A stretch of 43,903 nt of DNA from Belliella alkalica (lineage in GTDB: Bacteria; Bacteroidota; Bacteroidia; Cytophagales; Cyclobacteriaceae). The position numbers and the translations under genes were made by a program. The stretch's first letter is position 1. Every line of letters starts with the position of its first letter. The notes under the pieces are model-generated. The model was not told where the DNA came from. It saw only the letters and a program-made list of their open reading frames with translations, and did not search any database. The stretch is from positions 1-43,903 of the forward strand of contig NZ_JAKZGO010000027.1 of NCBI RefSeq assembly GCF_022549785.1, given 5' to 3'. This document shows, one piece after another, positions 25,034-32,747 of this stretch.

Positions 25034-25189
25034 TGATTTTGGGCAGATTCAATTGATTTTTAACAGTTTATAGATAAAAATCAGCATGTTATCTAAAAAA
25101 ACTGTTTTAGCTATTGAATTTCTATGATGAATTCATTTATCTTGCCTCTTGATTTAATTCCTAAATACAAACAACAAAAACTTAGGGCT

Positions 25190-25519
25190 GTGGAAGACAA
25201 CAGAGGAAATGACAGAGAAGAGATCTTCTCTAAGAGAGTAAAGGCTGGTAAGAGAACCTACTTCTTTGATGTAAAATCAACCAGATCAAACGATTATTAT
25301 CTTACCATCACAGAAAGTAAAAGAAGAATGAATGGTGAATCATTCACTTTTGAAAAACACAAGATTTTCCTTTACAAAGAAGATTTCGGGAAGTTTATCG
25401 AAGCTTTGCAAGGTGCTGTAGATCATGTGAAAAATGACCTTTTACCTGATTTTGATTTCTCTCAGTTTGATGAGCAAGAGACAGAATCAGAATATGATGA
25501 TGAACTGAAGTGGGATTAA
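25190..25519 (+). CDS. PUR family nucleic-acid-binding protein (DUF3276)
   Basis: The core EEIFSKRVKAGKRTYFFDVK, then STRSNDYYLTITESKRR and HKIFLYKEDFGKFIEALQ, is the PUR-alpha-like repeat found in Bacteroidota and spirochaetes, where such proteins bind single-stranded or double-stranded nucleic acid. The tail is strongly acidic (DFDFSQFDEQETESEYDDE). The GTG at 25190 gives 109 residues and a start VEDNRGNDREE like that of known relatives. An in-frame ATG at 25124 would add 22 residues (MMNSFILPLDLIPKYKQQKL...) not typical of the family; it remains possible. Its regulated targets are unknown. Confidence 0.85.
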   Translation: MEDNRGNDREEIFSKRVKAGKRTYFFDVKSTRSNDYYLTITESKRRMNGESFTFEKHKIFLYKEDFGKFIEALQGAVDHVKNDLLPDFDFSQFDEQETESEYDDELKWD

Positions 25520-26734: not shown

Positions 26735-27832
26735 ATGGCTTTACAGTGTGGCATCGTTGGACTACCCAATGTTGGAAAATCAACCCTATTCAATGCTTTA
26801 TCAAGTGCAAAAGCAGAAGCAGCAAATTTCCCTTTCTGTACAATCGAACCAAATGTTGGCGTCGTAACAGTTCCCGACAGAAGACTTCAAATTCTCGAAA
26901 ACCTTGTTTCTCCACAACGGGTATTGCCTACTGTGATTGAATTTGTGGATATTGCGGGACTTGTAAAAGGAGCTAGTAAAGGTGAGGGACTTGGCAATAA
27001 ATTTTTGGCAAACATCAGAGAAGTTGATGCAATTATTCACGTAATCAGATGTTTCAATGATGACAACATTGTGCATGTAGCTGGTGGTGTAGATCCTGTA
27101 TTTGACAAAGAAGTGATTGATACAGAGCTTCAATTGAAAGATTTGGAGTCTGTAGAAAAGAAAATCCAGAAGGTTGAAAAAATCGCAAAATCAGGAGATG
27201 CCAAAGCTAGAAAAGAATTGGAAACATTGATGCTTTTCAAAAATGCACTGGTAGGGGGAAAAAACGCCCGGGCTGTTGACGTAGAAAAAGAAGATTTGGA
27301 AGCTGTGAGAGACTTGCATCTTTTGACTATAAAACCTGTACTATATGTCGCCAATGTTGACGAGGAAAGTATCTTGACAGGAAATGAGTTTGTTGAAAAA
27401 CTGAAAGAAGATGTCAAAGAAGAAAATGCGGAAGTAATCATTTTGTGTGCAGCGTTGGAGGCTCAAATTGCAGAGTTTGAAGATGCAGATGAGAAAGCAA
27501 TGTTTCTTTCAGAATATGGACTGGAAGAAAGCGGATTGAACAGATTGATAGCAGGAGCTTACTCTTTGCTTAATTTAATCACCTATTTTACGGCAGGAGT
27601 ACAAGAAGTTAGGGCTTGGACGATAAAAAAAGGTTGGAAAGCGCCTCAAGCAGCTGGTGTGATTCATACTGACTTCGAAAGAGGTTTTATCAAGGCTGAA
27701 GTCATCAAACTACCTGAATATGAAAAGTTTAAAACAGAAGCTGCATGTCGGGAAAATGGTAAAATCGCTATTGAAGGAAAAGAATATATAGTCCAAGATG
27801 GTGATATTATGCATTTTAGGTTCAATGTATGA
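26735..27832 (+). CDS. ychF: Redox-regulated ATPase / Obg-like GTPase-family protein YchF
   Basis: This 365-residue protein matches YchF throughout. The P-loop GLPNVGKST (8-16) and switch region DIAGLVKGASKGEGLGNKFL are at the N-terminus, a coiled-coil insertion lies in the middle, and the C-terminal TGS domain ends in IVQDGDIMHFRFNV. YchF hydrolyses ATP rather than GTP, associates with ribosomes and is linked to oxidative stress responses; it acts in the cytoplasm. In place of the usual G4 NKxD motif is YVANVDEES, as in other YchF. It follows the AI-2E gene by 10 bp. Confidence 0.97.
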   Translation: MALQCGIVGLPNVGKSTLFNALSSAKAEAANFPFCTIEPNVGVVTVPDRRLQILENLVSPQRVLPTVIEFVDIAGLVKGASKGEGLGNKFLANIREVDAIIHVIRCFNDDNIVHVAGGVDPVFDKEVIDTELQLKDLESVEKKIQKVEKIAKSGDAKARKELETLMLFKNALVGGKNARAVDVEKEDLEAVRDLHLLTIKPVLYVANVDEESILTGNEFVEKLKEDVKEENAEVIILCAALEAQIAEFEDADEKAMFLSEYGLEESGLNRLIAGAYSLLNLITYFTAGVQEVRAWTIKKGWKAPQAAGVIHTDFERGFIKAEVIKLPEYEKFKTEAACRENGKIAIEGKEYIVQDGDIMHFRFNV

Positions 27833-27853: not shown

Positions 27854-27861
27854 TACTTTTG
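27854..27861 (+). promoter_or_regulatory. -7 element for the Cas6-like gene
   Basis: TACTTTTG matches TAnnTTTG, 22 bp after the ychF stop codon and 76 bp before the GTG start. The closest TTG upstream (27840-27842) is only 11 bp away, so the -33 part is weak. It suggests the gene is transcribed independently of ychF. Confidence 0.5.
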
Positions 27862-27937
27862 CAAGAACCCGTAATTAAAATACAATTATAATATCAAGTC
27901 AAATTAATTAATTGTTTCAATTTTATTTTTAAAAACT

Positions 27938-28813
27938 GTGAGAATAAGATTAATATTTTCGTTAAAAAACAAAGGTGCTTATTTACCATTTCACCACCAG
28001 TACATTCTGGCGCAATTTCTCAAGGGTCTTATCGTAAAAGGTGGACGTGAGGAGTTTTTCAACTACAATTACTTCAACTTCTCTGGCCTAAAAGGTCAGA
28101 CTAAAGTAAGTAGAAGCGGATTACATTATTACTCGAGCTTAGTCACTCTAGTGCTTTCATCACCCAATGAAGAATTTATTGACTATCTACTTGAGCAAGT
28201 ATTTGCAACTCCGAAAATTGAGCTTGGAAATCTTGTTATCTCTCCTGAATACACGGAGCAAGAGACAGAGCCAGAATTAGAGACTTCAAACAAGTTCGTT
28301 TGTATCTCTCCTTTGGTACTATTGACCCCATCATTCAATGACGAGTCAGGTAAAAGATTTATCAATCCAGATTCAGATGAATTTTCTGATCTGCTTTATG
28401 AATCTACTTTGACCAGAATGGAAAGATCAGGTTGGTATTCCCAAGAGCAGATGGAATCGTTCTACAAGTTTCAAGTCGTTCCTGATATGAACTATGTAAA
28501 TAAGCTAAGAGAACAGCAAAAGAAATTTGCTAGAATCTATTCTGTTTACGACATGGATGTCAAGTATGAAGTAAGAGGATATACACTTCCTTTCACATTA
28601 TATGCTGCTCCAGAAGTACAGGATTTCGTGTTCAAATGTGGCTTGGGTGCTTTCACCCACAAGGGCTTTGGAATGCTAGACTTAGCAAACCACGGTCATA
28701 ACCAAAGAACTGAACCTTACAAATTCAAGAGAGAAGGATTTATTCCTTACAAAGCTCAAGAAAGAGTAAAACCTCAAGAAGGAGAAGGAGAACAAGGAAC
28801 CGAAGAAGCTTAA
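27938..28813 (+). CDS. cas6: Orphan Cas6-like RNA-binding protein
   Basis: From a GTG start the protein has 291 residues. The N-terminus (MRIRLIFSLKNKGAYLPFHH then QYILAQFLKGLI) and the C-terminal glycine-rich loop GLGAFTHKGFGML (about 235-247) match Cas6, the endoribonuclease that cuts CRISPR precursor RNA at repeat hairpins. The region YFNFSGL (45-51) matches the Cas6 FTYS strand. Where archaeal Cas6 has its catalytic Tyr and His (Tyr31 and His46 in P. furiosus), this protein by eye has Lys and no His, so it may bind without cutting. The last 25 residues are a charged Glu- and Gly-rich tail. No other cas gene or CRISPR array is in the window. It has its own -7 element and terminator. Fold assignment is strong; function is open. 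Confidence 0.8.
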   Translation: MRIRLIFSLKNKGAYLPFHHQYILAQFLKGLIVKGGREEFFNYNYFNFSGLKGQTKVSRSGLHYYSSLVTLVLSSPNEEFIDYLLEQVFATPKIELGNLVISPEYTEQETEPELETSNKFVCISPLVLLTPSFNDESGKRFINPDSDEFSDLLYESTLTRMERSGWYSQEQMESFYKFQVVPDMNYVNKLREQQKKFARIYSVYDMDVKYEVRGYTLPFTLYAAPEVQDFVFKCGLGAFTHKGFGMLDLANHGHNQRTEPYKFKREGFIPYKAQERVKPQEGEGEQGTEEA

Positions 28814-28824
28814 TTGCTAACTTA

Positions 28825-28858
28825 AATAGCCCAATCAATCGATTGGGCTATTTTTTTT
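28825..28858 (+). terminator. Terminator of the Cas6-like gene
   Basis: A 12-bp stem (28825-28836 with 28841-28852) around an AATC loop is followed by a run of T to 28858. Confidence 0.93.
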
Positions 28859-28902: not shown

Positions 28903-28930
28903 TCACGTCCTGAAATTAATTGACACTTTT
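28903..28930 (+). repeat. 28-bp direct repeat, copy A
   Basis: It begins TCACGTCCTGAAATTA and ends ACACTTTT. The second copy at 29094 matches at 26 of 28 positions. The form resembles the end of an insertion sequence, but no transposase is present. Confidence 0.75.
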
Positions 28931-29027: not shown

Positions 29028-29046
29028 CCTGCCTGCAGCAGGCAGG
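29028..29046. repeat. GC-rich palindrome
   Basis: CCTGCCTGCAGCAGGCAGG has perfect 9-bp arms around one base and stands out against AT-rich DNA. Such CCTGCC palindromes occur as dispersed elements in Bacteroidota; other copies lie outside this window. Confidence 0.7.
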
Positions 29047-29093: not shown

Positions 29094-29121
29094 TCACGTC
29101 CTGAAATTAGTTAACACTTTT
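29094..29121 (+). repeat. 28-bp direct repeat, copy B
   Basis: It lies 191 bp from copy A in the same orientation, differing by two bases near the 3' half (GTTAAC in place of ATTGAC). It may be a solo element end. Confidence 0.75.
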
Positions 29122-30818: not shown

Positions 30819-32747
30819 TCATGAAACTTGCTCCTGAAGATCTTCGATCGCTTCAACCAAATATTCCCAGTCTTTATTTTGAGAAGCTTCTCTTGATTTC
30901 AGATTGGTATACTCCTGATTCAACTTCTCTAATTTTTCAATATCTGAGTATACTTCCGGCTTGGCCATTTCGGCTTCCAAAGCTAATTTCATAGCTTCAA
31001 GCTTGGATATTTCAATTTCGATTTTCTCCAATTCCTGTTCTTTTTTCTTCAACTCCTTTTTTAGGAGATTGGATTCAGGACTGCTAACTTCACGTTTCTT
31101 TGGTTCGACCTTTGGAGCATCAACTTTCACTTGTTTTGGTAAGCTGGTAGCTTCCTGCTTTTCTTTCCAGTCCACATACTCTTGATACGTCCCTAAGTAC
31201 TCTTTTATTTCATGGTTTTCAATGTACCAAATCTTGTTTGCCACACCTTTTATAAAATGCCTATCATGGGAAACAGTGATAAATGTACCCTCATATTGTT
31301 CCAAAGCTTGGATCAATATATTGACAGATTGCATATCCAAATGGTTGGTAGGCTCATCGAGAAGCAGAAAATTTGCTTCTGAAATTAAGGTTTTTGCTAG
31401 GGCTACTCTTGATTTTTCGCCTCCTGACAGAACCTTGATTTTTTTAAATACATCATCATTTGAGAACAAAAAGCAACCCAAAACACCTCTTAACTCTTGT
31501 TCTGTCTTCTTTGAGCCTGCTTGACCCATTTCCTGAAGAATTTCATTGTTGACATTCAAAGCCTCCAATTGATGCTGCGCATAAAAGGACTTGATTACAT
31601 TGAAACCATGTTCTCGCTTTCCTTCTATCGGTTCGGTACCATCCACAATTCTTAACAAAGTTGACTTTCCTTTTCCATTGGCACCTATCAGTGCTATTTT
31701 ATCACCTCTCTCAATTCTTGCGGTAGAATTTTTCAAAATGACTAAATCTCCATAAGATTTGGAGACATTTTCCAAGGAAACTAATTCTCTCCCTGATTTC
31801 TGGGAAAATTTGAATTTGAAATTCACAGAAATATTATCATCAACAACTTCATTTACCCTATCCAACCGATCCAGTGCTTTGACACGGGATTGCACCTGAT
31901 TAGACTTAGTGGCTTTGGCACGGAAACGCTCAATGAACTTTTCCGTCTGTTTGATCATTTGCTGTTGGTTTTCATAAGCATTTTGCTGGATTTCCATTCT
32001 TTCCTTTTTCTCCTCTTTATAGAATGAATAATTTCCAGAATAAAGAGTCAAGCTACCATGCGAAACCTCTACAGTGGATTCTATACAATTATCTAAAAAA
32101 TCCTGATCGTGAGATACAACAATCACCGCACCCTCGTAAGTTTTTAAATAATTTTCTACCCATTGAATAGAAGGTAAATCCAAGTGGTTGGTAGGTTCAT
32201 CAAGCATCAATAGAGAAGGCTTTTCCAAAAGAAGCTTAGCGAGCATCACACGCATTCTCCAACCTCCAGAAAAAGTCTTAAGTGGTCTCTGCAAATCCTT
32301 TGTATTGAAACCTATTCCTTCCAAGACTTCTTCAGCTTTTGCTTTGATTGTGTAGCCTTCATTGGCTTCAAATTGATCCTGAAGCTTAGCCAGTCTATTG
32401 ATTACATCATCAGAATAATCTGTTTCCATAAGCTTTAGAACAGCATCAATTTCCTCTTGTAACTTCAAAGTATCTTTAAATGCTTCCAAAGCTACATCCA
32501 AAATTGAGTCTTCAGATTGGTAAGAGAGCAAATCTTGGTTCAAAAAACCGATGGTACAATCCTTGGCTTTTTGAATTTCGCCTGAGGAAGGTTGATAGTC
32601 ACCATTGATGATTTTTAGCAAAGTTGACTTGCCTGTCCCATTGAGACCAACTAGTCCTATTTTGTCTTTTGGTTTTATATGTAGAGAAGCATTTTCGTAG
32701 AGTGCCCTGCCTCCGATGAAATACGAAAGATTATTGATAGATAACAT
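30819..32747 (-). CDS. ABC-F family ATPase (Uup/YheS-like)
   Basis: This 642-residue protein has two ATP-binding cassettes and no membrane segment, the layout of ABC-F translation factors. Cassette 1 has Walker A GLNGTGKST (34-42), signature FSGGWRMR and LLMLDEPTNHLD; cassette 2 has GANGKGKST, LSGGEKSR and LLLDEPTNHLD. A linker of about 80 residues separates them, and a charged C-terminal coiled coil (about 550-640) resembles that of Uup. ABC-F proteins act at the ribosomal exit or peptidyl site; this member's exact role is unknown. A -7-like TATTTTTG at 32752-32759 is only 4 bp from the ATG, so the mRNA could be leaderless or the true start later. Confidence 0.94.
   Translation of the reverse strand: MLSINNLSYFIGGRALYENASLHIKPKDKIGLVGLNGTGKSTLLKIINGDYQPSSGEIQKAKDCTIGFLNQDLLSYQSEDSILDVALEAFKDTLKLQEEIDAVLKLMETDYSDDVINRLAKLQDQFEANEGYTIKAKAEEVLEGIGFNTKDLQRPLKTFSGGWRMRVMLAKLLLEKPSLLMLDEPTNHLDLPSIQWVENYLKTYEGAVIVVSHDQDFLDNCIESTVEVSHGSLTLYSGNYSFYKEEKKERMEIQQNAYENQQQMIKQTEKFIERFRAKATKSNQVQSRVKALDRLDRVNEVVDDNISVNFKFKFSQKSGRELVSLENVSKSYGDLVILKNSTARIERGDKIALIGANGKGKSTLLRIVDGTEPIEGKREHGFNVIKSFYAQHQLEALNVNNEILQEMGQAGSKKTEQELRGVLGCFLFSNDDVFKKIKVLSGGEKSRVALAKTLISEANFLLLDEPTNHLDMQSVNILIQALEQYEGTFITVSHDRHFIKGVANKIWYIENHEIKEYLGTYQEYVDWKEKQEATSLPKQVKVDAPKVEPKKREVSSPESNLLKKELKKKEQELEKIEIEISKLEAMKLALEAEMAKPEVYSDIEKLEKLNQEYTNLKSREASQNKDWEYLVEAIEDLQEQVS

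Follow-up and report, generated by a model that had tools for sequence, protein, structure and literature searches.

An orphan Cas6 homologue of Cytophagales best read as a domesticated, CRISPR-independent protein

Introduction

What might a Cas6-like protein do when its gene stands apart from clustered regularly interspaced short palindromic repeats (CRISPR)? The question is raised by a 43,903-nucleotide stretch of Belliella alkalica DNA (contig NZ_JAKZGO010000027.1, hereafter the window), which encodes a Cas6-like protein, here termed the orphan, next to the conserved gene ychF. A preliminary description of the gene proposed a non-cutting, domesticated Cas6 that binds a cellular hairpin RNA. 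The most suitable reading of the orphan is that of a Cas6 domesticated for a task independent of CRISPR, because its catalytic triad is lost, the orthologues form a clade of their own, many carriers are free of cas1, the ratio of nonsynonymous to synonymous substitution rates (dN/dS) is low, ychF adjoins the gene in most of the related genomes, and the CRISPR locus found in its own genome is of type II. To the explanation as a whole, which comprises a Cas6b-like, non-cutting binder of U-rich single-stranded RNA with probable self-regulation, we assign a probability of about one half. No description of an orphan Cas6 of Cytophagales was found among the matches listed in the full-text literature searched, a body of text to which most subscription papers do not belong.

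Family identity and predicted structure

By profile and by predicted fold, the 291-residue orphan is a true Cas6 homologue. The sequence passes the cut-offs of both Pfam Cas_Cas6_C (PF01881; E value of 3.4e-21, 76.8 bits against a cut-off of 23) and NCBIfam TIGR01877 (Cas6; 73.6 bits against 58.65), and it also matches Cas6 sequences of the Protein Data Bank (PDB). The best PADLOC model is Cas6b with 97.5 bits, compared with 223 bits for a Cas6 encoded in a locus that also bears Cas3 (L054). The structure prediction and Cas6 comparison that the preliminary description had suggested were carried out, and both lead to Cas6. The AlphaFold2 model, computed from 38 aligned orphan rows, has a predicted local distance difference test score of 88.4. 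Foldseek comparison with the PDB returned 55 hits at E values of 0.001 or lower, and each of the best 50 of these 55 is either a Cas6 entry or a chain from a CRISPR effector complex, with 5yi6, PhCas6nc (3qjj), PfuCas6nc (3ufc) and PfuCas6 (3i4h) at the top of the list. The model, the Foldseek hits and the sequence together indicate a two-domain repeat-associated mysterious protein (RAMP) fold with a glycine-rich loop. The FTYS-like strand and the glycine-rich loop recognized earlier are present as FNFS and GLGAFTHKGFGML. An identical protein is encoded on a contig of Belliella calami; in the NCBI taxonomy the genus belongs to Cyclobacteriaceae, Cytophagales.

The two-domain fold, the glycine-rich loop and a profile match above cut-off, with Cas6b as the best PADLOC model, are features held in common with the catalytic Cas6 proteins of type I and III systems (TIGR01877, PF01881; PfuCas6, 3i4h and 3pkm; Cas6b). 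In contrast to these, the orphan has lost the whole Tyr-His-Lys triad, has no adjoining array or cas operon in the loci examined, and is a single-copy inherited gene with a KGQ motif invariant among the orphan rows. The archaeal Cas6nc proteins (PfuCas6nc and PhCas6nc) are among its nearest solved structures by sequence and by fold, and the orphan shares with them a Cas6 fold devoid of the catalytic residues.

The active site

Two alignments were used to examine the active site, one of the orphan profile with Pyrococcus furiosus Cas6 and one with a profile of 11 other Bacteroidota Cas6 proteins. They bear out the earlier claim, made by eye, that the catalytic Tyr and His are replaced. In both alignments the position of P. 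furiosus Tyr31 is taken by Lys29 of the orphan, and that of Lys52, the lysine ahead of the FTFS strand, by Asn44. The stretch that carries His46 is absent, with 6 residues missing relative to P. furiosus and 13 relative to the 11-protein profile. The P. furiosus type of Tyr-His-Lys triad is thus not found in the orphan; Y29 and H44 are invariant in 11 of the 11 other Bacteroidota Cas6 proteins. Six of these comparison proteins are encoded near class 1 cas genes: a Cas3-HD gene shares the locus of three (L048, L054, L055), and a RAMP gene adjoins each of the remaining three (L155, L161, L163). As for the other five, four had one neighbour tested, with no cas match, and the neighbours of the fifth (L167) lay outside the test.

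Position 29 is Lys or Arg in 31 of the 38 orphan rows and Gln, Asp, Thr or Ser in the remaining 7, and position 44 is variable. As judged from these rows, the catalytic triad is gone family-wide, and the orphan has likely lost the ability to cut. Other positions are strongly conserved. The KGQ part of FSGLKGQTK is invariant in the orphan rows and not conserved among the 11 other Cas6 proteins, and Lys or Arg occurs in at least 90% of the orphan rows at positions that include R2, R4, K12, K52, K56, R59, K195, K196, R199 and R213. Invariant basic residues occur in both halves of the protein, namely R2, R4 and K52 in one and K195, K196, R199 and R213 in the other.

It is possible, albeit rather unlikely, that the orphan retains endoribonuclease activity through an atypical site like that of crenarchaeal enzymes, and that it processes a specific cellular RNA instead of CRISPR RNA. 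The Cas6 of Sulfolobus solfataricus (Sso1437) provides the precedent, as it also keeps the fold without Tyr and His and acts on CRISPR repeats by means of conserved Lys and Arg residues (PMC3652601). Lys29 of the orphan occupies the Tyr31 position, and many polar or basic residues, e.g. H20, K52, Q54, R213 and Y215, are invariant. However, Lys29, the nearest candidate for such a residue, is not invariant, as seen in the seven exceptional rows; moreover, the stretch bearing His46 is gone and the position of P. furiosus Lys52 is not conserved.

Inheritance and genomic neighbourhood

A tree built from 45 orphan sequences together with the 11 other Cas6 proteins places the orphans in one clade, with a support of 100/100 and a branch of 2.4. 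Each of the bacterial families f1, f2, f4, f16, f19 and f74 is recovered as a single group, with weaker support for f19; family f9 is not, and one of its rows is a long branch. This structure largely follows the bacterial families and fits vertical inheritance. The median dN/dS (NG86) among 12 close relatives is 0.041, calculated from the 40 of 66 pairs with dS below 2.5; the value for ychF is 0.020 (11 of 66 pairs). The orphan gene is under purifying selection.

In 38 of the 47 genomes with an orthologue (48 of 67 loci, with some genomes represented twice), ychF is the next gene upstream and is read in the same direction. Genes for DUF3276, an AI-2E permease, a type IX secretion system plug protein and a two-domain ABC ATPase share the neighbourhood in several families. 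In f2, f4, f15, f18, f19, f74 and part of f9, ychF does not adjoin the orphan gene, and the neighbours listed for f2, f9, f15, f19 and f74 are diverse. The pairing of ychF with the orphan is old and not obligatory.

The stability of this neighbourhood, with ychF and the ABC ATPase gene retained in several families, and the near-neutral net charge of the orphan could be accommodated by a second alternative, in which RNA binding has been lost and the fold acts as a protein-protein scaffold, linked for example to YchF or to other factors encoded nearby. This alternative is unlikely in view of the invariance of basic residues in both domains, the families in which ychF is not adjacent and the diversity of the listed neighbours.

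Genomic distribution and CRISPR systems

The survey of related genomes that the preliminary description had called for was undertaken with three sets: the orphan's own genome and its relatives (59 genomes), an even sample of the order (291) and a sample of the phylum (395). An orthologue is present in 47 of the 59 genomes and in 144 of the 291, with one match in each of the latter and a lowest score of 235 bits. The phylum sample gave 50 matches at 1e-10, nine of them strong, all from the orphan's own family and with its own genome included; the next score below these nine is 85 bits. Two nearly complete genomes of the same family (G012 and G018) have no orthologue, and the gene can therefore be lost.

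Among the 47 carriers, 28 have cas1 and 19 do not, and neither RAMPs nor Cas3-HD exceed the cut-off in 35. A search for cas1 in the order sample found it in 80 of the 144 carriers, leaving 64 without, and in 33 of the 147 non-carriers, leaving 114 without. Roughly half of the genomes sampled from the order thus carry the orphan as a normally inherited gene, and many of these carriers have no cas1. These cas1-free carriers, together with the family-following clade, the purifying selection and the adjacency to ychF, strengthen the earlier suggestion of a stable, CRISPR-independent chromosomal role.

The statement that no array or other cas gene is nearby also stands. Scanning the window with a simple repeat-finding script revealed no CRISPR array, and no other cas gene was recognized by eye among its open reading frames (ORFs) of at least 100 residues; the profile libraries were run on Cas6 and six neighbours. 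No array was found in the 80 named loci or the 21 further loci of orthologues, and class 1 cas genes do not accompany the gene in the window or the loci examined. In 33 of the 47 carriers the orphan has no other Cas6_C match beside it in the genome, and a further match occurs in just 14. It differs in this respect from PfuCas6nc, a paralogue of a catalytic Cas6 (PMC3652601).

The B. alkalica genome itself contains a type II locus (Cas9 RuvC_III, Cas1, Cas2 and a 10-repeat array) as well as a second solo Cas6 of divergent sequence. The search of this genome, which covers CRISPR types with Cas1, RAMPs, Cas3 or Cas6, gave no RAMPs or Cas3-HD that exceed the cut-off. Type II CRISPR systems are not known to use Cas6. 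A role in trans, in which the orphan would bind or process the RNA of CRISPR systems encoded at other sites of the genome, is very improbable: cas1 is indeed commoner in carriers and the matching family model is Cas6, but 64 carriers lack cas1, 33 cas1-positive genomes lack the orphan, the searches of the own genome gave a type II locus and neither RAMPs nor Cas3-HD above the cut-off, and two loci with Cas3-HD (L048, L054) have a separate Cas6 with Tyr and His.

The second Belliella Cas6 is likewise non-canonical. It is acidic, with a net charge of about -5 to -16, and the Tyr/His pair is absent by eye. It is encoded at G000:C1:557203-557589 (joined L169/L170), L049 7269-8048, L050 7499-8278 and L052 7419-8207. 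In L049, L050 and L052 it adjoins a CRISPR array with cas1 nearby, and L050 also has a Cas9 gene. The stretches examined of L051, L053, L056 and the own genome yielded no array. The type II locus of two Belliella genomes contains a 192-residue ORF with a PNHFHLL motif between cas9 and cas1 (L137 17771-18349; L050 12072-12650), which has no Pfam match and is presumably related to REP-associated transposases.

An orthologue from Bernardetia (L191 15001-15813; NZ_CP147018.1), located on a 601-kb replicon, is annotated as 'CRISPR-associated endoribonuclease Cas6', and the gene table of that record, which is incomplete, lists no CRISPR feature or other cas gene within 15 kb. With at least one public record labelled in this manner, surveys that take these genes for components of CRISPR systems would be misled.

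Start codon and leader

Start positions of the orthologues were taken from the conserved N-terminus, and the counts of start codons, U runs and words below carry no correction for relatedness. Among 54 orthologues the start codon is GTG in 24, TTG in 22, ATG in 6 and TTA in 2. The two TTA cases (L038 and L039) lie one codon 3' of a GTG; therefore 48 of the 54 starts are non-ATG. All 80 named Cyclobacteriaceae loci start with GTG, and the Bernardetia record with TTG. In 38 matched genomes the orphan begins with TTG in 19, GTG in 17 and ATG in 2, and ychF with ATG in all 38.

A run of at least five U residues is present within 40 nucleotides upstream of the start in 44 of 54 orthologues, compared with 59 of 222 control leaders. 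In the matched pairs such a run is found in both leaders in 8 cases, in the Cas6 leader only in 26, in the ychF leader only in 2 and in neither in 2. Of 47 leaders, 16 contain the word TTTTTTAA; shuffling gives an expectation of 3.9. The nearly fixed GUG/UUG start and the U-rich leader suggest autogenous control, as a persistent weak start associated with a U tract is the appearance expected of such regulation.

Proposed function

The orphan probably has a CRISPR-independent, RNA-binding job. In the proposed sequence of events, a Cas6 nearest to the Cas6b type would have been acquired at an early stage of Cytophagales evolution and then domesticated. The canonical site would have been lost (Tyr to Lys, deletion of the His stretch, Lys to Asn) with retention of the two-domain fold, and the gene passed on thereafter as a single copy unconnected with CRISPR. 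The product most likely functions as a stand-alone protein that holds short, unstructured, U-rich RNA uncut in the cleft between its domains. One likely target is its own leader, with autogenous control exerted through the weak GUG or UUG start.

PfuCas6 and the inactive homologue PhCas6nc bind unstructured RNA, which wraps through the cleft between two β-sheets and derives most of its affinity from the first ~10 nucleotides (PMC3727216). Binding of U-rich single strands is proposed here because these proteins are among the nearest folds and because basic residues are found in both halves of the orphan. The hairpin ligand put forward in the preliminary description is disfavoured by the same precedent, and no conserved hairpin was found in the gene's own leader.

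Several points weigh against a domesticated, non-cutting RNA binder. The activity of S. solfataricus Cas6, which lacks Tyr and His and cuts with Lys and Arg (PMC3652601), means that loss of the triad does not prove loss of cutting. The orphan lacks an overall basic character, and in some distant rows the loop carries no positive charge. The association of the orphan with cas1, with an odds ratio of 4.3, counts against full independence from CRISPR; we tentatively read it as confounded by taxonomy and by reduced genomes.

We infer absence of cleavage, binding of single-stranded RNA, autoregulation and a wider post-transcriptional role. The fuller version, in which the orphan is a core, CRISPR-free, non-cutting regulator from the Cytophagales ancestor that binds single-stranded RNA, controls itself through the U-rich leader and fixed weak start, and also acts on further mRNAs, is tentative and somewhat doubtful. 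No Hfq-type chaperone is known in these bacteria. If true, the domestication would plainly exemplify how a protein for CRISPR RNA processing can become a housekeeping factor, in this instance in a large part of a bacterial order. One gene with one leader offers a defined entry to post-transcriptional control in Cytophagales.

Organization of the locus

The features of the locus are collected in Table 1. They include the -7 element and the terminator that the preliminary description had assigned to the orphan gene, both of which are confirmed. No Rfam family reaches its gathering score in the window.

Table 1 Features of the orphan Cas6 locus (window coordinates).
Feature	Position	Strand	Remarks
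Orphan Cas6-like gene	27938..28813	+	GTG start, 291 residues, stop within coordinates
-7 promoter element TACTTTTG	27854..27861	+	presumably of the Bacteroidota type; also in the consensus derived from the aligned upstream regions of 80 named Cyclobacteriaceae loci
U5 tract in leader	27926..27930	+	just 5' of the GTG start; candidate site for the gene's own protein
Intrinsic terminator	28827..28858	+	9-bp stem (28827-28835 with 28842-28850), then T8
Lys29 codon	28022..28024	+	falls at the position of catalytic Tyr31 in the P. furiosus Cas6 alignment
FSGLKGQTK, codons 48-56	28079..28105	+	F48, S49, K52, G53 and Q54 invariant in 38 aligned orphan rows
ychF	26735..27832	+	immediate 5' neighbour of the orphan gene
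DUF3276 gene	25124..25519	+	part of the conserved neighbourhood; taken to be PUR-like nucleic-acid binding
Two-domain ABC ATPase gene	30819..32747	-	part of the conserved neighbourhood; presumably ABC-F type

The interval that separates the orphan's terminator from the following gene contains a 28-bp direct repeat (28903-28930 and 29094-29121, 191 bp apart), the core word of which occurs, among the loci examined, only in the window and in loci cut from it. A palindromic element, CCTGCCTGCAGCAGGCAGG, is situated 3' of the orphan gene at 29028-29046.
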